NCBI GenBank assembly: GCA_949840935.1
Contig: CATKXX010000015.1
Span: 1-64,000 of the forward strand
DNA from: an uncultured Acetatifactor sp.
GTDB taxonomy: Bacteria; Bacillota; Clostridia; Lachnospirales; Lachnospiraceae
DNA: 64,000 bases
Direction: 5' to 3'
Position 1 is the stretch's first letter; every line of letters begins with the position of its first letter. A program made the translations under genes and the position numbers. Of this stretch, positions 15,896 to 50,899 are shown one piece after another. The notes beneath the pieces are model-generated. The model did no database searches and was not told where the DNA came from. It saw only the letters and a program-made list of their open reading frames with translations.

Positions 15896-17512
15896 TTGCA
15901 AATGATCCCTTTTAGAGATATGAAAATGTATAATGAAGCTTCGCATCATAACGAAATTGATTTAGATAAAATAGATATAGCCGCAGAGCCGCCCACAGAG
16001 GAACCGGCCAGACAATACTATTTTATGGCAAAATGCCGGAAGTGGGTGCGGGAGTTTGAACAAAAAAACGGGCGGTTGCCCACCGCCTGCGTGACGACTT
16101 TCGGTTGTCAGATGAACGCCAGGGATTCTGAAAAGCTGGCGGGAATCCTGGGGCAGGCAGGCTATGTGCTCACGGACAGTGAGGACGCTGATTTTGTGAT
16201 CTTCAACACCTGTACCGTCCGGGATAACGCTAATCAGAAGGTTTACGGCAGGCTGGGCGAATTGAATGGCCGTAAGAAAAGAAATCCCGCCATGGAGATT
16301 GCCCTTTGCGGCTGTATGACCCAGGAGCCCCAGGTGGTGGAAAGGCTGAAAAAGAGCTATCCCTTTGTCAACCTGATTTTCGGAACACACAATATTTTTA
16401 AATTTGCGGAGCTTTTACATACCGTCCATGAAAACGGGGACGGTATGGTGATCGATATCTGGCCGGATGCAGACAGGATTGTGGAGGAGCTGCCCACAGA
16501 GCGGAAGTATCCTTTTAAGTCCGGCATCAACATCATGTTTGGGTGCAACAATTTCTGCAGCTATTGCATTGTCCCTTACGTCAGAGGCCGGGAGAGAAGC
16601 AGGGAACCGAAGGATATTCTCAGGGAGATTCAACGGCTGGTACAGGACGGGGTGGTGGAGGTCATGCTGCTGGGCCAGAATGTGAATTCCTACGGTAAAA
16701 ATCTGGAAAATCCCATGACCTTCGCCCAGCTTCTGCGGGAGGTGGAACGGATTGAGGGCTTGAAACGGATCCGCTTTATGACTTCCCATCCCAAGGATCT
16801 GTCCGACGAGCTGATTCAGGTGATGAAGGAATCGAAAAAGATCTGCCGCCATCTTCACCTGCCCCTTCAGTCCGGTTCCACGAAAATCCTCACCCGCATG
16901 AACCGCCGCTATACAAAGGAACAGTATCTGGAATTGGCGGGAAAAATCCGCCGGGAGATTCCCGATATAGCTATCACCACGGATATTATTGTGGGATTTC
17001 CGGGGGAGACGGAAGCAGATTTGGAGGAGACCATAGACGTAGTCCGCAGGGTCAGGTTTGACAACGCCTTTACCTTTATCTATTCCAAACGGACAGGTAC
17101 CCCCGCCGCGGCGATGGAAGACCAGGTTCCGGAGGAACAGGTGCGGAAAGGTTTTGACAGGCTGCTTAAGGTGGTGCAGGATACGGCAAAGGAACAGGCG
17201 GAGAAGTATAGAGGGCGTGTTATGGAAGCACTGATCGAGTCGGTCAATGAGAAAAACGGCATGGCAGGCGGGCAGACGAAAAGAGTCAACGCCGACAGGG
17301 AAAGCAGCGGGGCTGCCGACGATCATGGGTATGCGGCTGAAACAATGGTTACAGGCAGGCTTTCCAACAATACCATTGTCCATCTTCCCGGGGATGCGTC
17401 CATGGTCGGGAAACTGGTCAGCGTCTCCCTGGATCAATGCTGCGGATTCTATTACACAGGTCATGTGGCGGACAGCTCTTTCACGGATGAGGAAGAAAAA
17501 ATTATACAGTAA
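15896..17512 (+). CDS. miaB: tRNA-2-methylthio-N6-dimethylallyladenosine synthase MiaB
   Basis: This radical-SAM enzyme adds a methylthio group to i6A37 of tRNAs reading UNN codons. It is the step after MiaA, which is also encoded in this window. The N-terminal cluster domain holds FGCQMNARDSEKL, NTCTVRDNA and LCGCMTQ. The radical SAM motif CNNFCSYC is followed by IVPYVRGRERSR. A TRAM domain closes the protein and carries a roughly 20-residue extra polar loop (RVNADRESSGAADDHGYAAET). A TTG start at 15896 fits the GGAGGGAGGG site (7 nt); the ATG two codons later would be too far (13 nt). The length of 538 residues is longer than E. coli MiaB because of an N-terminal extension and this loop. 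Confidence 0.95.
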   Translation: MQMIPFRDMKMYNEASHHNEIDLDKIDIAAEPPTEEPARQYYFMAKCRKWVREFEQKNGRLPTACVTTFGCQMNARDSEKLAGILGQAGYVLTDSEDADFVIFNTCTVRDNANQKVYGRLGELNGRKKRNPAMEIALCGCMTQEPQVVERLKKSYPFVNLIFGTHNIFKFAELLHTVHENGDGMVIDIWPDADRIVEELPTERKYPFKSGINIMFGCNNFCSYCIVPYVRGRERSREPKDILREIQRLVQDGVVEVMLLGQNVNSYGKNLENPMTFAQLLREVERIEGLKRIRFMTSHPKDLSDELIQVMKESKKICRHLHLPLQSGSTKILTRMNRRYTKEQYLELAGKIRREIPDIAITTDIIVGFPGETEADLEETIDVVRRVRFDNAFTFIYSKRTGTPAAAMEDQVPEEQVRKGFDRLLKVVQDTAKEQAEKYRGRVMEALIESVNEKNGMAGGQTKRVNADRESSGAADDHGYAAETMVTGRLSNNTIVHLPGDASMVGKLVSVSLDQCCGFYYTGHVADSSFTDEEEKIIQ

Positions 17513-17629: not shown

Positions 17630-19399
17630 ATGGAACAGAAAAGCAATCTGACAGAAACGGTACAAAACAAAAGCATACAGAATCCCCAAAAGGAAAATCC
17701 CATACACAGGATTCCCGCAACTATACATACCATTGACGCCGCGCCGGGACAGAGGATCCTGGTATTCAGCGATATTCACGGGTATCTGAACCGTCTGATC
17801 CAGCTTTTAAAAAAGGTGAATTATGGCGGGGACGATATCATAGTCGTTGTGGGCGACCTGGTGGACAAGGGGCCGGAGAGCCTGCGGGTGGTACAGTACC
17901 TCCTGGATTTAAGCAGGCGCCATCCCGTCTATGTTACCATGGGGAATGTGGATCTGGACAGGGTACAGTACTTTCAGGAGGACTCCTTTAAGTCGGACGA
18001 GGAGTTTGTGGATTACCTGAAGGAATTTTCCAGAAGGGAAAAATGGGGCGGCAGCATCGGTCAGGATATGCTGGAGAATCTGGGAGTGGGCGTGGAACAG
18101 GTCACGGTACAGAACGCGGCCGAATGCCGCTGTATGGTCAGGGAGCATTTCCGTCAGGAGCTGGATTTCCTGGGGCGCTGTCCCACCATACTGACCCTGG
18201 GGGATTACCTCTTTGTCCACGGCGGCGTGCCTGTGGATGACCTGCCGGCGCTGGAGGGAACCTCCGCTTACCAATACCTGAAATGGGATCATTTCTGGAA
18301 GCAGGGATACCGTTTTCAGAAATATACGGTGGTTACGGGACACTTCCCTGCCGTCCTGTATAAAGACAACGAGGATATGAGCCCGCTGTTCGATCCGGAC
18401 AGAAGGGTGATCGCCATTGACGGGGGCTGCGGCCTGAAAGCTTCGGGCCAGTTAAACTGCCTGGTTTTGCAGGACTGCCATACCGGGATGGAGGAGATCC
18501 GTTGGGAGTCCTTTGACGAATTTCCTGTGGTGAGGGCGCTGGAGCCTCAGGACGAATCGCCTTCTTCCCTTTTTCTCAACTATTTCGACAGCAGGGTGGA
18601 GCTTTTGGAGGAGCGCGGCCGTTTCCGAAGGGTCAGGCATCTTTCTACCGGGAAGGTTTTTGACGTCCCCCGGGACTGGGCGGTGACATGGCGCGACGGA
18701 GAGTTTCACTGCGAGGACTACTGTGACAGGAAGCTGGCGGTGGCGGCGGGAGAGGAGCTCTCGGTGATCTTTGAGACGGCAGAGGGCCGGTATGTAAAGA
18801 AACAGGGGCGGCAGATCGGATGGTATCATGGGGCGGCGGAGCCCGTGAAAAGCAATCTGCGGCTTGTGGAAGGAGCTCCCGGGTACGGGAATTGGCGGCG
18901 GGAGAGGGAATTGGCCGTGTATGAGCTGCTGCAGAGGCTGGAAATCCCCTTCCAGCGGATCGATCATCAGGAGGCAAACAACATGGATGCCTGCCGGGAG
19001 ATCGATCTGGCCCTGGACGCAGTGATCTGTAAGAACCTGTTTCTGTGCAACCGGCAGAGAACCGCCTTTTATCTGCTGATGATGCCGGGGAATAAAAAAT
19101 TTAAGACAAAGGAGCTGTCGGAGCAGATCGGCAGTTCCCGTCTTTCCTTCGGGGAGGCGGCGTATATGGAACGATTTCTGCATATTACCCCCGGCTCCGT
19201 CAGCGTCATGGGGCTGATGAACGACAGGGAAAACAGGGTCAGGCTGCTGATCGACCGGGATGTGCTGAAGGGGGAGCGGCTGGGCTGCCATCCCTGTATG
19301 AATACGTCCAGTATCCGGCTGAGAATATCGGATCTGCTGGAAAAATTTCTTCCAGCGGTGGGACATGAGCCGATATATGTAGATCTGACCGGACAATAG
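17630..19399 (+). CDS. Metallophosphatase fused to a ProX/YbaK-type tRNA-editing domain
   Basis: This is one uninterrupted 589-residue frame with two enzyme modules. The N-terminal calcineurin-like phosphoesterase has FSDIHGYLNR (Asp48, His50), VGDLVDKGP (Asp76, Asp79), MGNVDLD (Asn106), FVHGGV (His197), GHFP (His238) and AIDGGCG. The usual GNHE histidine is replaced (GNVD). A beta-rich middle part (about 320-410) follows. Residues 427-585 match stand-alone ProX/ProXp-ala proteins, which hydrolyse Ala-tRNA(Pro): VICKNLFL (Lys468), GSSRLSF, PGSVSVMGLMND, GCHPCMNTSS. The ribosome binding site (GAGGGTGG) is about 14 nt from ATG, which is weak, so the exact start is uncertain. sulP follows at 15 nt. 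Confidence 0.85.
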   Translation: MEQKSNLTETVQNKSIQNPQKENPIHRIPATIHTIDAAPGQRILVFSDIHGYLNRLIQLLKKVNYGGDDIIVVVGDLVDKGPESLRVVQYLLDLSRRHPVYVTMGNVDLDRVQYFQEDSFKSDEEFVDYLKEFSRREKWGGSIGQDMLENLGVGVEQVTVQNAAECRCMVREHFRQELDFLGRCPTILTLGDYLFVHGGVPVDDLPALEGTSAYQYLKWDHFWKQGYRFQKYTVVTGHFPAVLYKDNEDMSPLFDPDRRVIAIDGGCGLKASGQLNCLVLQDCHTGMEEIRWESFDEFPVVRALEPQDESPSSLFLNYFDSRVELLEERGRFRRVRHLSTGKVFDVPRDWAVTWRDGEFHCEDYCDRKLAVAAGEELSVIFETAEGRYVKKQGRQIGWYHGAAEPVKSNLRLVEGAPGYGNWRRERELAVYELLQRLEIPFQRIDHQEANNMDACREIDLALDAVICKNLFLCNRQRTAFYLLMMPGNKKFKTKELSEQIGSSRLSFGEAAYMERFLHITPGSVSVMGLMNDRENRVRLLIDRDVLKGERLGCHPCMNTSSIRLRISDLLEKFLPAVGHEPIYVDLTGQ

Positions 19400-19414: not shown

Positions 19415-21079
19415 ATGGAAAAATTAAAACCAAAGCTTTTTTCGGTGATGAAGACCTACACGAAGGAGCAGTTTATTAAGGATGTGGTGGCGGGAATCAT
19501 CGTGGCGATCATCGCTCTGCCCCTGTCCATCGCCCTGGCCCTGGCCTCCGGTGTGACCCCGGAAAAGGGTATTTACACGGCAATCACGGCAGGATTTGTG
19601 ATTTCGTTCCTGGGCGGCAGCCGGGTGCAGATTGCCGGGCCTACGGCGGCCTTCGCCACCATTGTGGCGGGGATTGTGGCTAAGAACGGTTTTGAAGGGC
19701 TGGTGATCGCCACGCTGCTGGCGGGAGTGATCCTGATCCTGATGGGCCTCCTGCGCCTGGGAGGCCTGATCAAATTCATTCCCTACACCATCACCACCGG
19801 ATTTACGGCAGGAATCGCCGTGACTATCTTTATCGGCCAGATCAAGGATTTCCTGGGACTGGCCGTGGTGACGGAGGAACCTTTGATCGAAACCATGGAC
19901 AAGCTGAAGGCCGTATTTGCCTTTATAGACACCATCAACTGGCAGGCGGTGGCGGTGGGGGCGGTCTGTATGGCAATCCTGATCGCATGGCCGTATCTGC
20001 CCGGGTTCTGCAAAAAAATCCCCCCTTCCCTGATCGCGGTTCTGGCAGGTATCGCCATGGTCAGCGGCCTGGGGATGAAGGTCAATACCATTGGGGACCT
20101 GTATGAGATTTCCAATAAGCTTCCTTCCGTGTCTCTTCCCGGTTTCAGCATGGAAACGGTGCGGAATGTGTTCCCCGACGCCGTGACCATCGCCATCCTG
20201 GCGGCCATAGAATCCCTGCTTTCCTGCGTGGTGGCGGACAGTATGGTGAACAGCAGGCACCGTTCCAATATGGAGCTGGTGGCCCAGGGGGCCGGAAATA
20301 TCGTGTCGGCGCTCTTTGGCGGCATTCCCGCCACGGGAGCCATTGCCAGGACGGCAGCCAACATCAAGAACGGCGGGCGCACGCCCATTGCGGGCATGGT
20401 GCATTCAGTGGTGCTTCTTCTGATCCTGGTGGTTCTGATGCCCTATGCGGCGTTAATCCCCATGCCTGCCATTGCGGCCATCCTTTTCATGGTGGCTTAC
20501 AATATGTGCGGCTGGAGAAATTTCGTTTATCTGTGTAAAACCTCGCCTAAGAGCGATATCGCGGTGCTGGTGGTGACTTTCCTGCTGACGGTGGTATTTG
20601 ACCTGGTGGTGGCTATCGAGGTGGGGATCCTGATGGCGGCGCTGCTGTTCATGAAACGTATGAGCGAAGTCACCGAAGTGGAGGGCTGGAAGTACATAGA
20701 TGACGAGGACGACCCCGACAGCCTGTCCCTGCGGGAGGTTCCCGCCAACACCCGGGTATATGAGATCAGCGGCCCCCTGTTCTTCGGCGCGGCGGACAAG
20801 ATCCTGACCATTTCCCTGGACGAGAAGACGAAATGCCTGATCCTGCGTATGAGGGGAGTGTCCGCCATCGACGCCACCGCCATGCACAATCTGGAGGAAA
20901 TGTACGCGGAGTGTCAGCGCAAGAAGATCCGGCTGGTGCTGTCCCACGTCAACGAGCAGCCTCTGCGGGTGATGCAGAAGGCAGGATTTGTGGAAAAGGT
21001 GGGCGCGGAAAACTTCTGCTCCCACATTGACGATGCGCTGCGGCGGGCGGAAGAATTGCAGCGGGGACGCGCATCCTAA
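19415..21079 (+). CDS. SulP-family anion transporter with STAS domain
   Basis: This 554-residue transporter has 10-14 membrane helices in the SLC26/SulP fold (for example GIIVAIIALPLSIALALASGV and GGSRVQIAGPTAAFATIVAGIVA), ending in a cytoplasmic STAS domain (about 440-545, VYEISGPLFFGAADKI...ILRMRGVSAIDATAMHNLEEM). Family members carry sulfate, bicarbonate or dicarboxylates; the substrate cannot be read from the sequence. AGGAGG lies 11 nt before ATG. It follows the phosphatase/ProX gene by 15 nt, so they are probably co-transcribed. Confidence 0.92.
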   Translation: MEKLKPKLFSVMKTYTKEQFIKDVVAGIIVAIIALPLSIALALASGVTPEKGIYTAITAGFVISFLGGSRVQIAGPTAAFATIVAGIVAKNGFEGLVIATLLAGVILILMGLLRLGGLIKFIPYTITTGFTAGIAVTIFIGQIKDFLGLAVVTEEPLIETMDKLKAVFAFIDTINWQAVAVGAVCMAILIAWPYLPGFCKKIPPSLIAVLAGIAMVSGLGMKVNTIGDLYEISNKLPSVSLPGFSMETVRNVFPDAVTIAILAAIESLLSCVVADSMVNSRHRSNMELVAQGAGNIVSALFGGIPATGAIARTAANIKNGGRTPIAGMVHSVVLLLILVVLMPYAALIPMPAIAAILFMVAYNMCGWRNFVYLCKTSPKSDIAVLVVTFLLTVVFDLVVAIEVGILMAALLFMKRMSEVTEVEGWKYIDDEDDPDSLSLREVPANTRVYEISGPLFFGAADKILTISLDEKTKCLILRMRGVSAIDATAMHNLEEMYAECQRKKIRLVLSHVNEQPLRVMQKAGFVEKVGAENFCSHIDDALRRAEELQRGRAS

Positions 21080-21161: not shown

Positions 21162-21223
21162 GAGGGCAAATGCGCAAACCTTGTGTGTTTGCCCTTAATT
21201 ATGAGAACAGGAGTGTACCAAAG

Positions 21224-23902
21224 ATGCCGGAACAGCGGATTCCAGTGGAAGATCTGACCCCCATGATGCAGCAATACATGGAGACGAAAAAGCAATATCA
21301 GGATTGTATCCTTTTTTACCGTCTGGGTGATTTTTATGAGATGTTTTTTGACGATGCCCTGACGGTCACTAAGGAGCTGGAACTTACGCTGACGGGAAAG
21401 GCCTGCGGGCTGGAGGAGCGCGCCCCCATGTGCGGTGTCCCTTATCACGCGGTGGAGGGATACTTGACCAAACTGGTCAGCAGGGGCTACAAGGTAGCAA
21501 TCTGCGAGCAGACAGAGGATCCGAAGCTGGCCAAGGGCCTGGTAAAGCGTGAGGTAGTGCGCATCGTCACGCCGGGAACGAACCTGAACGTGCAGGCGCT
21601 GGAGGAATCCAAGAACAATTTCCTCATGTGCATTACTTATACGCCCACAAAGATTGGTATTTCCGTGGCGGATGTGACCACTGGGGATTATTATCTGACG
21701 GAGGTGGAGGATTTAAAAAAGCTGAACGACGAGCTGATGAAATATGAGCCCTCGGAGATCATCTGCAACGAGGCTTTCCTGGTCAGCGGCTTTGATGTGG
21801 ACGAGCTGCGGGAGAGGTATCATATTTCCATCAATGCGCTTGAGCCCCGCCTTTTTGGCGATGAAGAATGCAGGAGGGTGCTGCTAAAGCATTTTAAAGT
21901 AAACACGATGATCGGGCTGGGAATTGAGGACTTTCCCGTGGGAATGCTGGCTGCGGGGGCTCTGCTGCAGTATCTCTACGAGACCCAGAAGACAGAGCTG
22001 GAGCATTTTACCCATATTTATCCCTATCTGGCCAATAAATATATGCTGCTTGACAGCTCTACCAGGCGTAACCTGGAGCTCACAGAGACGCTCAGAGAGA
22101 AGCAGAAAAGAGGCTCTCTGCTGTGGGTTCTTGACAAGACCCGCACGGCAATGGGGGGCAGGCTTCTTCGGAGCATGATCGAGCAGCCCCTGATCGACCG
22201 GGAGGAGATTGAGAAACGCCTGGACGCCATTGAGGAGCTGAATCAGGACAGCGTGTCACGGGATGAGATCAGGGAATATCTGAATCCGGTCTATGACCTG
22301 GAAAGGCTGCTCAGCAAGGTGACTTATAAGACAGCCAATCCCAGGGATTTTATTGCTTTCCGCAATTCCCTTGAAATGCTGCCCCATATCAAGACAGTGC
22401 TGACAGAATTTTCAGGGGAGGAGTTGAAGCGCATCTATGAGGATATGGACGGGCTGGAGGACATTTACCAGCTGATCAGCGCAGCTATCGAGGAGGATCC
22501 GCCTGTTACAATCCGCGAGGGCGGTATGATCAGGGATGGCTTTGACGAGACCATAGACACCCTCAGAAGTGCAAAACGCGATGGAAAACAGTGGCTTGCA
22601 GAATTGGAAGAGCAGGACAGGGAGCGCACCGGAATTAAAAATCTGAAGATCAAATACAATAAAGTATTTGGCTATTACTTTGAAGTTACCAATTCTTACA
22701 GGGATATGGTGCCGGAGGATTATATCCGCAAGCAGACCCTTGCCAATGCGGAGCGGTATACCACGCCCCGATTAAAGGAGCTGGAGGACACCATTTTAAA
22801 TGCGGAGGACAAGCTGACGGCGCTGGAATACGATCTGTTCTGTAAGATTCGGGAATCCATTGCACTGGAATTGGAGCGGATTCAGAAAACCGCAAAAGCC
22901 ATTGCCAGGCTGGATGTGTATTCCTCCCTGTCCCTTGTGTCGGAGCGGAACCGCTTTGTAAGGCCGAAGCTGAACGGGAAGGGGGTCATCGACATCAAGG
23001 ACGGAAGACATCCTGTGGTGGAGCAGATGATCACCAACGACCTGTTTATTGCCAACGATACGTTCCTGGACAACGGCAGCCATTGCATCAGTATCATAAC
23101 AGGCCCCAACATGGCGGGAAAGTCCACTTATATGAGGCAGACGGCGCTGATCGTGCTGATGGCGCAGCTGGGCTGTTTTGTGCCTGCGAAGAGCGCGAAT
23201 ATAGGCATTGTGGACAGGATTTTTACCAGGGTGGGGGCCTCCGACGACCTGGCAAGCGGCCAGTCCACCTTCATGGTGGAGATGAATGAGGTGGCCAATA
23301 TCCTGAGGAACGCTACCTCCGACAGCCTGCTGATCCTGGACGAGATCGGGCGGGGGACGTCCACCTTTGACGGGCTCAGCATTGCCTGGGCGGTGATCGA
23401 ACATATCAGCAACCGGAAACTGCTGGGGGCCAAGACCCTCTTTGCCACCCATTACCACGAGCTCACCGAGCTGGAGGGCAAGATGAGCAATGTGAACAAT
23501 TACTGCATCGCCGTGAAGGAATGCGGGGACGATATCATCTTCCTGAGAAAGATCATCAAGGGGGGCGCAGACCGCAGCTACGGCATCCAGGTGGCCAAGC
23601 TGGCGGGGGTGCCGGATATGGTCATAGACAGGGCAAAGGAGATTGCGGAACAGCTCTCCGACAACGATATCACGGAGAAGGTACAGAGCATTTCCGTTGA
23701 GATAAAGGGTGAAGGCAGGCTTAAGAAACAGCCTAAACTGGATGAGCTGGATCTGGCGCAGATGTCGCTTTTTGACACAGTCACTGACGAGGATGTCATA
23801 AAAGAATTGATGGAGCTTGAGGTCAATACCATGGCGCCCATCGATGCCCTGAATGCTTTGTACAGGCTGCAGAACAAGATTAAGAACCGCTGGCAGATGT
23901 GA
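21224..23902 (+). CDS. mutS: DNA mismatch repair protein MutS
   Basis: This mismatch-recognition ATPase of 892 residues has an N-terminal mismatch-binding domain (LTPMMQQYMETKKQYQDCILFYRLGDFYEMFF, with the Phe-x-Glu pair in FYEM), a connector, lever and clamp, and the C-terminal ATPase with Walker A (GPNMAGKSTYMRQ), Walker B (LLILDEIGRGTSTFDG) and FATHYHELTEL. The ORF-track start at 21170 adds 18 residues; the ATG at 21224 matches the family start (MPEQRIPVEDLTPMMQQY) and has GGAG upstream. It is the first gene of a repair/tRNA modification operon, with mutL 76 nt downstream. Confidence 0.96.
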   Translation: MPEQRIPVEDLTPMMQQYMETKKQYQDCILFYRLGDFYEMFFDDALTVTKELELTLTGKACGLEERAPMCGVPYHAVEGYLTKLVSRGYKVAICEQTEDPKLAKGLVKREVVRIVTPGTNLNVQALEESKNNFLMCITYTPTKIGISVADVTTGDYYLTEVEDLKKLNDELMKYEPSEIICNEAFLVSGFDVDELRERYHISINALEPRLFGDEECRRVLLKHFKVNTMIGLGIEDFPVGMLAAGALLQYLYETQKTELEHFTHIYPYLANKYMLLDSSTRRNLELTETLREKQKRGSLLWVLDKTRTAMGGRLLRSMIEQPLIDREEIEKRLDAIEELNQDSVSRDEIREYLNPVYDLERLLSKVTYKTANPRDFIAFRNSLEMLPHIKTVLTEFSGEELKRIYEDMDGLEDIYQLISAAIEEDPPVTIREGGMIRDGFDETIDTLRSAKRDGKQWLAELEEQDRERTGIKNLKIKYNKVFGYYFEVTNSYRDMVPEDYIRKQTLANAERYTTPRLKELEDTILNAEDKLTALEYDLFCKIRESIALELERIQKTAKAIARLDVYSSLSLVSERNRFVRPKLNGKGVIDIKDGRHPVVEQMITNDLFIANDTFLDNGSHCISIITGPNMAGKSTYMRQTALIVLMAQLGCFVPAKSANIGIVDRIFTRVGASDDLASGQSTFMVEMNEVANILRNATSDSLLILDEIGRGTSTFDGLSIAWAVIEHISNRKLLGAKTLFATHYHELTELEGKMSNVNNYCIAVKECGDDIIFLRKIIKGGADRSYGIQVAKLAGVPDMVIDRAKEIAEQLSDNDITEKVQSISVEIKGEGRLKKQPKLDELDLAQMSLFDTVTDEDVIKELMELEVNTMAPIDALNALYRLQNKIKNRWQM

Positions 23903-39802: not shown

Positions 39803-39821
39803 TGTTTTGGAGGCAGTTTTT

Positions 39822-41729
39822 GTGGCAAAGAGAGCATCGGGCAGGGCAGGTACGGGAAGAAGATCGGCGCGCGGCGCGAACAGGGGCACATCGGCCAGGG
39901 TATCGGGGAACGCATCAAACAGAAGCACTTCAGGGAATGCATCGGCCAGGGCGGGCAGAGGCGCGTCAGGGAACGCATCGGCCAGAGCGGGCAGGGGCGC
40001 ATCAGGGCGGCCGTCGGGGAATGCATCGGCCAGGCCGTCAGGAAGCATTTCGGACATGCCGGGCAGGGGCGCGTCGGGCAGAGCGTCAGGAAGCATTTCG
40101 GACATGCCGGGCAGGGGCGCGTCGGACAGGGCGTCAGGAAGCATTTCGGACATGTCGGGCAGGGGCGCGTCGGACAGGGTGTTGGAGAGAGCGTCGGACG
40201 GGCGGCCGGGCCGGGCATCCGGAAACGCATCGGACAGAGCGGGCAGAGGTTCATCGGAAAGGGCATCGGGGAACGCCAGGCAGGGAAGGAATACGACTGA
40301 CAGGCCGGACAGGAAGGGAGCTGACAGATCCCCGAAAGAGCCGGAAAAGATTAAAAAGTACCGCAGGCCCTTAAACCTGAACATCGGCATGGTTATTTTT
40401 GCCGTGATTTTTGTCTATGTGCTGGTCTGTGTGGTCATGTATTTTCAGACAAGCCATATTGTGCGCTATGAGGTTCAGGAGGGATCGCTGGCTACAAACA
40501 ATATCTATCGGGGCGTCGTTATCCGGGAGGAAAGCGTTGTGTGCACTACCACTGCAGGATATGTCAATTATTATGCCAGAGAGGGCGAACGCGTGGCGAA
40601 GAACGATCTGGTATATGTGGTGGACGAGACGGGACGTCTCAACGAAGAGCTCGAAGGGATGAACATGGGGGAAAATTCCCTGAGTGAGAGGGAGCTGGCT
40701 GAATTTAGAAATGAGATAGTAAATTTCGTTCATGGCTTTGATACCGTTCACTTTGACAATACATATGATTTCAAGTATTCTTTAAAGAATACGGTACTCA
40801 AGCTGGCAAATGTAAATATGCTGCAGAGCGTCAATGACCTGAACGGTGCAACGGGTGCTAATGTGGTCAATTATTCCAACGCTCCCTGCTCGGGAATTGT
40901 GGCATACTGGGTCGATGGGCTCGAGGGGCTTTCGCCTCAGGATGTGACTGCCGGGCTCCTGGAGGGGGAAAATTACGAGAAGACACAGTTTATCGGTAAT
41001 TCGCTGATGGCGGCTGGGGATCCAGCTTATAAGCTTTCTACCAGTGAAATCTGGTCTCTTGTGATTCCCGTGGATGCGGAAAGAGGCGTGCAGCTGCAGG
41101 AGGAGGATTATGTAAAGGTGCGTTTTCTGAAGAACCAGTACGAGTCCTGGGGAAAGGTGAACCTGCTTACCAACGGTGACGGCAATACCTACCTGCAGCT
41201 TACCTTTAATAATTCCATGGTGAGCTTTATTTCAGACAGGTTTCTGGATGTGGAGCTGATCGTGGAGGATGAGACCGGCTTGAAGATACCGGTATCCTCC
41301 ATTGTACAGAAGGAATTCTTCCTGATCCCGGAGGAATATGTGATTCTCGGAGGAAGCAATGGAGGCGAGAGCATCATGCGTCAGTGTTTCCTGGAGGACG
41401 GGACCATATCCAGCGAGATCATGGAGATTGAGGTATACAATTTTGACGAGGAAAACCGGGAATACTATGTGGACAGTTCCATACTGGATGTGGGCGATAC
41501 GCTGTATAAGCTGGACAGCCAGGAGACCTTTACCGTGAGCAAGCGGGCCACGCTCATCGGCGTATACAACATGAACAAGGGGTACGCTGATTTCAAGCAG
41601 ATCAGTATTTTATACCAGAATGACGAATATGCCATCGTAATGCCCAATACGAAATATGGCCTGAGCGTATACGATTATATTGTGCTGGATGCAGATTCGG
41701 TTAATGATGATCAATTTATCAATCAGTAA
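39822..41729 (+). CDS. HlyD-like membrane-fusion protein with repetitive basic N-terminal tail
   Basis: This 635-residue protein has three parts. Residues 1-187 are a disordered cytoplasmic tail of Ser, Gly, Ala and Arg with 12- and 16-residue tandem repeats. One membrane helix follows (about 188-208, IGMVIFAVIFVYVLVCVVMYF). The outer domain begins as a barrel-sandwich hybrid (VQEGSLATNNIYRGVVIREESVVCTTTAGYVNYYAREGERV), like HlyD-type adaptors, and ends in beta-rich parts. The start is GTG 39822, with GGAGG 8 nt upstream; the track TTG at 39807 overlaps that site. It precedes yggS and sepF by 13 nt, so a role at the division site is plausible but inferred. No ABC or RND partner gene is nearby. 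Confidence 0.8.
   Translation: MAKRASGRAGTGRRSARGANRGTSARVSGNASNRSTSGNASARAGRGASGNASARAGRGASGRPSGNASARPSGSISDMPGRGASGRASGSISDMPGRGASDRASGSISDMSGRGASDRVLERASDGRPGRASGNASDRAGRGSSERASGNARQGRNTTDRPDRKGADRSPKEPEKIKKYRRPLNLNIGMVIFAVIFVYVLVCVVMYFQTSHIVRYEVQEGSLATNNIYRGVVIREESVVCTTTAGYVNYYAREGERVAKNDLVYVVDETGRLNEELEGMNMGENSLSERELAEFRNEIVNFVHGFDTVHFDNTYDFKYSLKNTVLKLANVNMLQSVNDLNGATGANVVNYSNAPCSGIVAYWVDGLEGLSPQDVTAGLLEGENYEKTQFIGNSLMAAGDPAYKLSTSEIWSLVIPVDAERGVQLQEEDYVKVRFLKNQYESWGKVNLLTNGDGNTYLQLTFNNSMVSFISDRFLDVELIVEDETGLKIPVSSIVQKEFFLIPEEYVILGGSNGGESIMRQCFLEDGTISSEIMEIEVYNFDEENREYYVDSSILDVGDTLYKLDSQETFTVSKRATLIGVYNMNKGYADFKQISILYQNDEYAIVMPNTKYGLSVYDYIVLDADSVNDDQFINQ
39930..40181 (+). repeat. Coding tandem repeats (36-bp and 48-bp units)
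   Basis: Two near-identical 36-bp units (39930-39965, 39966-40001; SGNASARAGRGA) and a diverged third (40002-40037) are followed by three 48-bp units (40038-40085, 40086-40133, 40134-40181; SGSISDMPGRGASGRA and variants). All unit lengths are multiples of three, so the frame is kept. The block is GC-rich relative to its surroundings and is expected to vary in copy number between strains. Confidence 0.85.
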
Positions 41730-49209: not shown

Positions 49210-49812
49210 ATGAAAAGGATCGGTATTATGGGAGGCACCTTTAATCCCGTCCACATGGGACATTTACTGCTGGCTGAATGGGCCAGAGTTGAAGCAGGGC
49301 TGGATGAGGTGTGGCTGATTCCCAGCGGGATTTCCTACAAAAAGGCCGGACAGGAGATTGCTCCTGCCCGGCACAGGCTGCGTATGGCGGAGCTTGCTGT
49401 GCAGGGCAACAAGTATTTTAAATGCCTTGACCTGGAGATAAAGCGGGGCGGCTATACCTATAGCTATGAGACGATGGAGGAGCTGGCGGCAGCTTATCCG
49501 GAAGACAAATTTTTCTTTATCCTGGGTGCGGACTGTCTGTTTACCCTGGAGACCTGGAAGTATCCCGGACGGCTCCTTGGCTGCTGCAAGCTGGCTGTGG
49601 CTGTCCGGGACGATACGCCTATGGAGGCGCTGAAGGAGAAAAAGGCGCAGCTGGAACAGCGCTTTGGCGGGGAGATTCTGCTGCTTCCGTTTGTCAGGCT
49701 GTCTGTTTCCGCTACGCAGGTCAGGGAGCGGATCAGGCAGGGAAAGAGTGTGCGATATATGATTCCGGACAGTGTCCTGGCCTATATTGAAGAAAAGGGG
49801 CTGTACCGATAA
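49210..49812 (+). CDS. nadD: Nicotinate-nucleotide adenylyltransferase
   Basis: This 200-residue enzyme makes deamido-NAD from nicotinate mononucleotide and ATP. Motifs are KRIGIMGGTFNPVHMGHLLLAEWA (GxFxPxHxGH), FFILGADCLFTLETWKYP and LSVSATQVRERIRQG (the ISSTxIR equivalent). The track start at 49168 is too early; GAGG before ATG 49210 fits the family. The nadD-yqeK-rsfS order is conserved in Firmicutes. Confidence 0.95.
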   Translation: MKRIGIMGGTFNPVHMGHLLLAEWARVEAGLDEVWLIPSGISYKKAGQEIAPARHRLRMAELAVQGNKYFKCLDLEIKRGGYTYSYETMEELAAAYPEDKFFFILGADCLFTLETWKYPGRLLGCCKLAVAVRDDTPMEALKEKKAQLEQRFGGEILLLPFVRLSVSATQVRERIRQGKSVRYMIPDSVLAYIEEKGLYR

Positions 49813-49858
49813 GAAGGATTGCGGGACAGGTGATGACAGGCAGAGGGGAAAATCAGAA

Positions 49859-50899
49859 ATGGCAAAAGAGGATTCTTTGAGAAAGCTTCGCAGGGAAATG
49901 GAAAAGGTACAGGATTCCAGGCGCTTTGAGCATACGCTGGGGGTGGAATTCACGGCTGCTTCCCTGGCCATGCGCTATGGCGCATCCATTAAAAGTGCCC
50001 GGACTGCAGGGCTTCTGCACGACTGTGCCAAATGTCTTACAGACGAAGAAAGGATATCCATCTGCCGGAAAAACGGCATTCCCATCTCAGAAATGGAGTG
50101 GAAAAACCCTTTCCTCCTCCATGCAAAGGCGGGAGCCTTTCTGGCGAAGAAACAATACGGGATTGAGGATGAGGATATCCTGAATGCCATCTGCAGTCAT
50201 ACCACCGGCAGGCCGGGAATGAGCCTGCTGGAAATGATTGTATTTGTTGCGGATTACATCGAACCGGGAAGGAATAAGGCTTCCAACCTGGAAGAAATAC
50301 GCAGGCTGGCATTTACGGAATTGGATCAGGCGCTTCTGAAGATTCTGGGTGATACGCTGGAATATCTGGAAAGCGGGAGCGGGGATGTGGATCCTATGAC
50401 AAGAAAAACCTGGGAATATTATATGGAAGTGGGTTCCCTGCGGCATTCACCAGATGCTCGTGCAAGCGCAGCACCCGGCTCATTGCCCGCGGGAATCAAA
50501 TGCCGCAGGTGCGGCGGAATGAGAGGTAATATGGAACAGAATTCAATGGAAATGGCGAAGCTCGCCGTAAAGGCGCTGGAGGACAAGAAGGCGGAGGATA
50601 TCCGCATCATTGATATCAGCCAGGTGACAGTGATCGCTGATTATTTCCTGATCGCCGGGGGAAATAACCGGAATCAGATTCAGGCACTGTGTGATAATGT
50701 GGAGGAAACGCTGGGCAGGGCGGGCTTTTTCTGCAGACAGAAGGAAGGATACGATACGGCAAACTGGATCCTGATGGATTTCGGGGATGTCATTGTCCAT
50801 ATTTTTGACAAGGAGAACAGGCTGTTGTATGATCTGGAACGCATCTGGAGGGATGGCAGACAGATGAATATGGAGGAATTCCGGAGAGAGCAGGCTTAA
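49859..50899 (+). CDS. YqeK HD phosphohydrolase fused in frame to ribosome silencing factor RsfS
   Basis: One 346-codon frame holds two proteins that are normally separate. Residues 1-190 are YqeK, which hydrolyses Ap4A symmetrically; the HD metal ligands are His25, His54-Asp55, His88, His114 and Asp132. Residues 195-224 are a linker of poor conservation (SPDARASAAPGSLPAGIKCRRCGG). Residues 225-346 are RsfS, which blocks 50S-30S joining (MAKLAVKALEDKKAEDIRIIDIS...DYFLIAGGNNRNQIQA...WILMDFGDVIVHIF). A possible internal start at 50531 (ATG after AGAGGTAAT) would make free RsfS as well. GAGGGG supports the start at 49859. The linker looks like a former intergenic spacer. Confidence 0.88.
   Translation: MAKEDSLRKLRREMEKVQDSRRFEHTLGVEFTAASLAMRYGASIKSARTAGLLHDCAKCLTDEERISICRKNGIPISEMEWKNPFLLHAKAGAFLAKKQYGIEDEDILNAICSHTTGRPGMSLLEMIVFVADYIEPGRNKASNLEEIRRLAFTELDQALLKILGDTLEYLESGSGDVDPMTRKTWEYYMEVGSLRHSPDARASAAPGSLPAGIKCRRCGGMRGNMEQNSMEMAKLAVKALEDKKAEDIRIIDISQVTVIADYFLIAGGNNRNQIQALCDNVEETLGRAGFFCRQKEGYDTANWILMDFGDVIVHIFDKENRLLYDLERIWRDGRQMNMEEFRREQA

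Follow-up and report, generated by a model that had tools for sequence, protein, structure and literature searches.

The question raised by the open frame at positions 17630-19399 (forward strand) of the 64,000-nucleotide stretch of DNA analysed here (the window) is whether a metallophosphatase and a ProXp-ala editing domain are genuinely joined in one protein and, if so, whether they work together. The frame is single and intact from ATG to stop, has no internal stops and encodes 589 amino acids. The initial annotation had read it as a calcineurin-like phosphoesterase followed by a ProXp-ala domain, and this was confirmed by Pfam, with both domains well over their cut-offs: Metallophos at residues 42-248 (67.1 bits, cut-off 21.5) and tRNA_edit, PF04073, at 466-570 (71.1 bits, cut-off 25.5). 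Four segments can be delimited, all on the forward strand. A variable N-terminal extension (aa 1-28, 17630..17713) was recognised from the alignment, and AlphaFold2 gives its residues 1-20 very low confidence (pLDDT below 50). It is followed by an ApaH-like PPP/calcineurin-like metallophosphatase domain (aa 36-300, 17735..18529, with GNVD at 105-108), placed by Pfam, Foldseek and column counts; an all-beta domain (aa 301-410, 18530..18859), placed by alignment to a family of stand-alone phosphatases and modelled at pLDDT 91.7; and the ProXp-ala domain (aa 411-589, 18860..19396), placed by Pfam, PDB relatives, a tree, alignment and Foldseek. The AlphaFold2 model of the whole fused protein, made from a 33-row alignment, has a pLDDT of 90.5 and a pTM of 0.87.

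That two genes were joined by a frameshift or an assembly error is practically inconceivable. The window's assembly is incomplete (64%), but an artefact is ruled out because colinear full-length homologues, 50-81% identical to the fused protein, occur across many independent genomes, from the sister species G187 (80% identity) downwards; one of them, IMSAGC_003, comes from a record not labelled as a MAG. The absence of internal stops and the grouping of all fused editing domains in a single clade also argue against an artefact. Full-length colinear fusions were found in 15 of the 101 genomes of the genus, a count that includes the window's own copy and two cut by contig ends. Whether fused homologues occur beyond the genus had been left as a check, and they do: one is present in G030, of a second genus, and of the best 80 matches in a scan of the sequence collection with the alignment as query, 18 were fused; their labels read Lachnospiraceae, Acetatifactor, Blautia or simply bacterium.

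In the window the gene lies between a miaB-like gene (15896..17512, +) and a SulP-type transporter gene (19415..21079, +), followed by mutS (21170..23902, +), mutL and miaA, the names of these neighbours being taken from sequence reading. Synteny marks miaB and mutS as the conserved edges of the slot. The slot is conserved only in the window's subclade, and the other fused lineages carry the gene elsewhere. Further along the window, an open frame at 39807-41729 contains tandem repeats with periods of 36 and 48 (39930-40179), which encode a Gly/Ser/Arg-rich N-terminal tract of a 640-aa protein.

In a tree of ProX domains all 16 fused domains formed one clade (support 100/99), and on this tree one fusion event of two formerly separate genes is sufficient. 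The fused region begins with LRLVEGAP, which aligns with MELMKGRP, the first residues of the stand-alone relatives, so a whole ProXp-ala gene was joined in frame. The editing half is mostly 55-66% identical to these stand-alone ProXp-ala proteins and groups with them rather than with YbaK. Its score against the YbaK profile TIGR00011 is 17.8 bits, against a cut-off of 153.25, and a true YbaK is encoded separately (L002, 176 bits). Among PDB entries, residues 440-587 are closest to the ProXp-ala of Caulobacter crescentus (E=4e-19), and Foldseek matched the half to 1vki and 1vjf (TMt 0.86-0.88; E=6.5e-15 for 1vki).

The residues that characterise ProXp-ala are largely present. Lysine 45 of the C. 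crescentus enzyme, nearly universal in ProXp-ala, corresponds to K468, and the acceptor-stem arginine R80, which is not universal, corresponds to R504 (residue roles from PMC10164551); both were kept in 19 of 19 aligned rows. The position of the secondary residue K50, for which strict conservation is absent (PMC10164551), is occupied here by C473, and by cysteine or arginine in all 19 rows, those of the Lachnospiraceae relatives included. ProXp-ala is otherwise a single-domain, stand-alone protein; here the domain is fused.

The gene content of the host genomes bears on what this domain does. A stand-alone ProXp-ala was found in 0 of the 15 fusion genomes and in about 47 of the 85 others of the genus (p=2.8e-5, Fisher; counted by hand, with a p value that ignores kinship among the genomes). 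A prolyl-tRNA synthetase (ProRS) of about 480 aa that lacks the INS editing domain (proS_fam_I) was present in 28 of the 31 genomes examined, including the sister species; the three without a full match to proS_fam_I were G000 (the window's own MAG, 64% complete), G207 and G033. The ProRS protein of G030 was checked and is likewise an INS-less proS_fam_I enzyme. Three genomes carry an additional ProRS that bears INS: G242 and G170, which keep the fusion alongside it, and G195, in which the fusion gene (L062:7434-8342) has decayed through internal deletions. The tRNA-Pro genes, located with a BLAST query, have C1:G72 and A73, which are the elements that bacterial ProXp-ala recognises (PMC3973320, PMC10164551). 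Since the fusion genomes have no other ProXp-ala, and nearly all have an INS-less ProRS, the C-terminal domain probably has the usual function of a ProXp-ala, which is also the simplest interpretation.

The phosphatase half bore out the expectation that all metal motifs of a calcineurin-like phosphoesterase would be present. The six ligands are D48, H50, D76, N106, H197 and H238 (motifs DxH, GD, GN, H and GH), and column counts showed that they are kept throughout the aligned family. The GNVD that had been pointed out in place of GNHE is indeed there, but it is no peculiarity of this protein and was rejected as an unusual feature: among the best 80 relatives the motif reads GNVD in 45, GNVE in 15 and GNCD in 14, and nearly all members have V or C in place of the histidine, with GNHE in one, L066. 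The general-acid histidine of GNHE is thus replaced by V107, and K80 stands where an arginine is usual in the GDxxxRG motif. Because the GNVD site is without the general-acid histidine of PPP enzymes, catalysis by this domain is uncertain. The closest solved relatives are trypanosome and bacterial ApaH-type enzymes, with PnkP lower down, and Foldseek of the AlphaFold2 model matched 2qjc and lambda phosphatase. As an ApaH proper it scores far too low, with 24.5 bits against an NCBIfam equivalog cut-off of 222.85 and 45.1 against a cut-off of 176 for PRK00166.

Proteins of about 310-400 aa that consist of the phosphatase and the beta domain, without the editing domain, make up a family in Clostridia; its members come from Lachnospiraceae, Hungatella, Clostridium oryzae, Oscillospiraceae and others. 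No conserved gene neighbours, translation-related or other, were found for these stand-alone phosphatases, and their surroundings gave no clue to a substrate. Residues 301-410 are the conserved C-terminal domain of this family. The initial annotation had taken this region for a beta-rich linker of about 100 residues; its beta structure and size stand, but it is a folded, conserved domain of the phosphatase family and was rejected as a mere spacer. Foldseek of the beta domain returned SH3-like matches only, none of them significant, and any SH3-like character is at most weakly indicated by the model.

In trees of the phosphatase, members without the editing domain are nested in the fused clade at three points (G198/G201, G218/G221 and L151). 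On these trees the editing half was cleanly lost, and the phosphatase retained, at least three times, a count which assumes that regain is unlikely. In G198/G201 and G218/G221 the phosphatase occupies the same miaB-mutS slot, with little space for a ProX remnant before the following gene; in L151 the frame does not run beyond the beta domain, and the next gene is unrelated. The phosphatase motifs are kept in all three. A further ProX-less candidate, L159, was rejected as it is cut by a contig end. Neither a ProXp-ala nor an INS domain was detected in G198, G201, G218, G221 or G999 (the genome of L151), where only YbaK-type proteins were found, the two matches in G999 being classed by profile span. 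Values of dN/dS were about 0.06-0.22 in all three domains of fused pairs, which are thus under purifying selection, and 0.15-0.32 in phosphatase-only pairs, both being rough estimates owing to high dS. Since three lineages dropped the editing half yet kept the phosphatase, the two halves would appear to do separate jobs. The suggestion that the modules may be independent thus gained support from these losses and from the wide occurrence of the phosphatase and beta domain alone.

The explanation that we consider probable as a whole is a fusion, of single origin and carried by some gut Lachnospiraceae, in which the ProXp-ala and phosphatase modules work mainly independently. The C-terminal domain would be the cell's only ProXp-ala, hydrolysing Ala-tRNA(Pro) made by the INS-less ProRS, to judge from sequence, tRNA and gene content. 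The N-terminal phosphatase and beta domain would together be an ApaH-like phosphoesterase that uses two metals and has a substrate of its own, and the favoured view of it is of an independent phosphoesterase tethered to an editing enzyme. That substrate is most likely a nucleotide or an RNA end, a guess from the relatives. The separate losses, like the relatives that stand alone, suggest that the fusion provides common expression or location and not an obligate coupled reaction. Several observations go against this explanation: the pTM of 0.87 suggests a fixed arrangement of the domains, which could mean cooperation; G242 and G170 keep the fusion despite having an INS-bearing ProRS; no INS-less ProRS was found in G207 or in the window's own, 64% complete genome; and the GNVD site makes catalysis by the phosphatase uncertain.

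A coupled enzyme is unlikely, although several facts are in its favour. In such an enzyme the phosphatase, beside the editing site, would act on a tRNA end or on a molecule that arises as a side product of prolyl-tRNA synthesis or regulates it, such as Np4A formed by ProRS. ApaH and the trypanosome ApaH-like phosphatase are among its closest characterised relatives in sequence and fold, PnkP being further down, and the fusion is conserved to about 50% identity; moreover, G202, of the same genus, joins ProXp-ala to another nucleotide hydrolase, MazG. The score far under the ApaH equivalog cut-off, the lack of a conserved translation-related neighbourhood around the stand-alone phosphatase, and its persistence in three ProX-less lineages with no detectable ProXp-ala at all count against coupling. 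In addition, the window encodes the Ap4A hydrolase YqeK, which passes the Ap4A-hydrolase equivalog cut-off, so clearance of Ap4A by the phosphatase would be redundant. The initial annotation had proposed a tRNA, a nucleotide alarmone or the editing product as possible targets of the phosphatase, a proposal weakened by YqeK, by the three losses of the editing half only and by the wide stand-alone occurrence. Quite unlikely in our judgement is a quality-control version in which one polypeptide couples proofreading and clean-up, the phosphatase removing or sensing a nucleotide or RNA species that arises from misacylation or stalling of ProRS. Very unlikely, too, is a phosphatase that has degenerated into a ligand-binding domain or a scaffold and regulates or places the editing domain. 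The absence of the general-acid histidine (V107), the lysine at position 80 and the possibility that the beta domain, with its weak, non-significant SH3-like similarity, is an interaction module would fit such a role; the metal ligands kept across the aligned family, the strong purifying selection and the survival of the phosphatase after loss of the editing domain do not, and GNCD-type sites in the YfcE/MJ0936 group can be active.

At 49772-50899 of the window the HD domain of YqeK and RsfS share one 375-aa frame, whereas the likely YqeK frames of the relatives, found by a broad HD-domain search, are about 200-230 aa; the frame is either a yqeK-rsfS fusion or the product of a lost stop. As for MazG, the frame in G202 (L095:5344-6531) encodes 395 aa, with PF04073 at 86 bits and PF03819, the MazG nucleotide pyrophosphohydrolase domain, at 101 bits. 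A small MazG-like frame also lies in G226 (L048:1966-2457), on the same strand as the fused gene and about 5.5 kb away. That ProXp-ala has two different nucleotide hydrolases as fusion partners within a single genus may hint at coupling or may be coincidence.

Compared with known proteins, the editing half shares its fold (TMt 0.86-0.88) and 28-32% identity with ProXp-ala from C. crescentus (CC_0111, PDB 5vxb, 1vjf and 9bu5) and Agrobacterium tumefaciens (Atu3699, 1vki), together with the K45 and R80 equivalents, an INS-less ProRS in nearly all of the host genomes and C1:G72/A73 in tRNA-Pro; it differs in lying C-terminal to a phosphatase and in having cysteine at the K50 equivalent. Plant ProXp-ala likewise carries an added domain, a plant-only C-terminal one for dimerisation and tRNA binding (PMC9425024), but that domain is not a phosphatase. 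The INS domain of bacterial P-type ProRS is a homologous editing domain also joined to another enzyme, in that case inserted in the synthetase itself. The phosphatase shares the two-metal PPP fold and motifs with ApaH and ApaH-like phosphatases (PDB 2dfj, 2qjc) and with lambda protein phosphatase (1g5b), and differs in GNVD for GNHE or GNHD, in lysine for arginine in GDxxxRG, in its C-terminal beta domain and in scores far below the equivalog cut-offs. Searches of the open-access literature turned up no account of a metallophosphatase or MazG fused to ProXp-ala or YbaK. The architecture therefore looks undescribed so far, a new combination of known parts and not a new kind of system.

If coupled quality control did turn out to be true, the fusion of ProXp-ala to MazG in G202 would show such coupling a second time. 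For a phosphatase family that is widespread in Clostridia, the phosphatase-ProXp-ala fusion offers a lead to the substrate. The three losses of the editing half, in lineages where neither ProXp-ala nor an INS domain was detected, amount to natural knock-outs in which to study life without known Ala-tRNA(Pro) editing.
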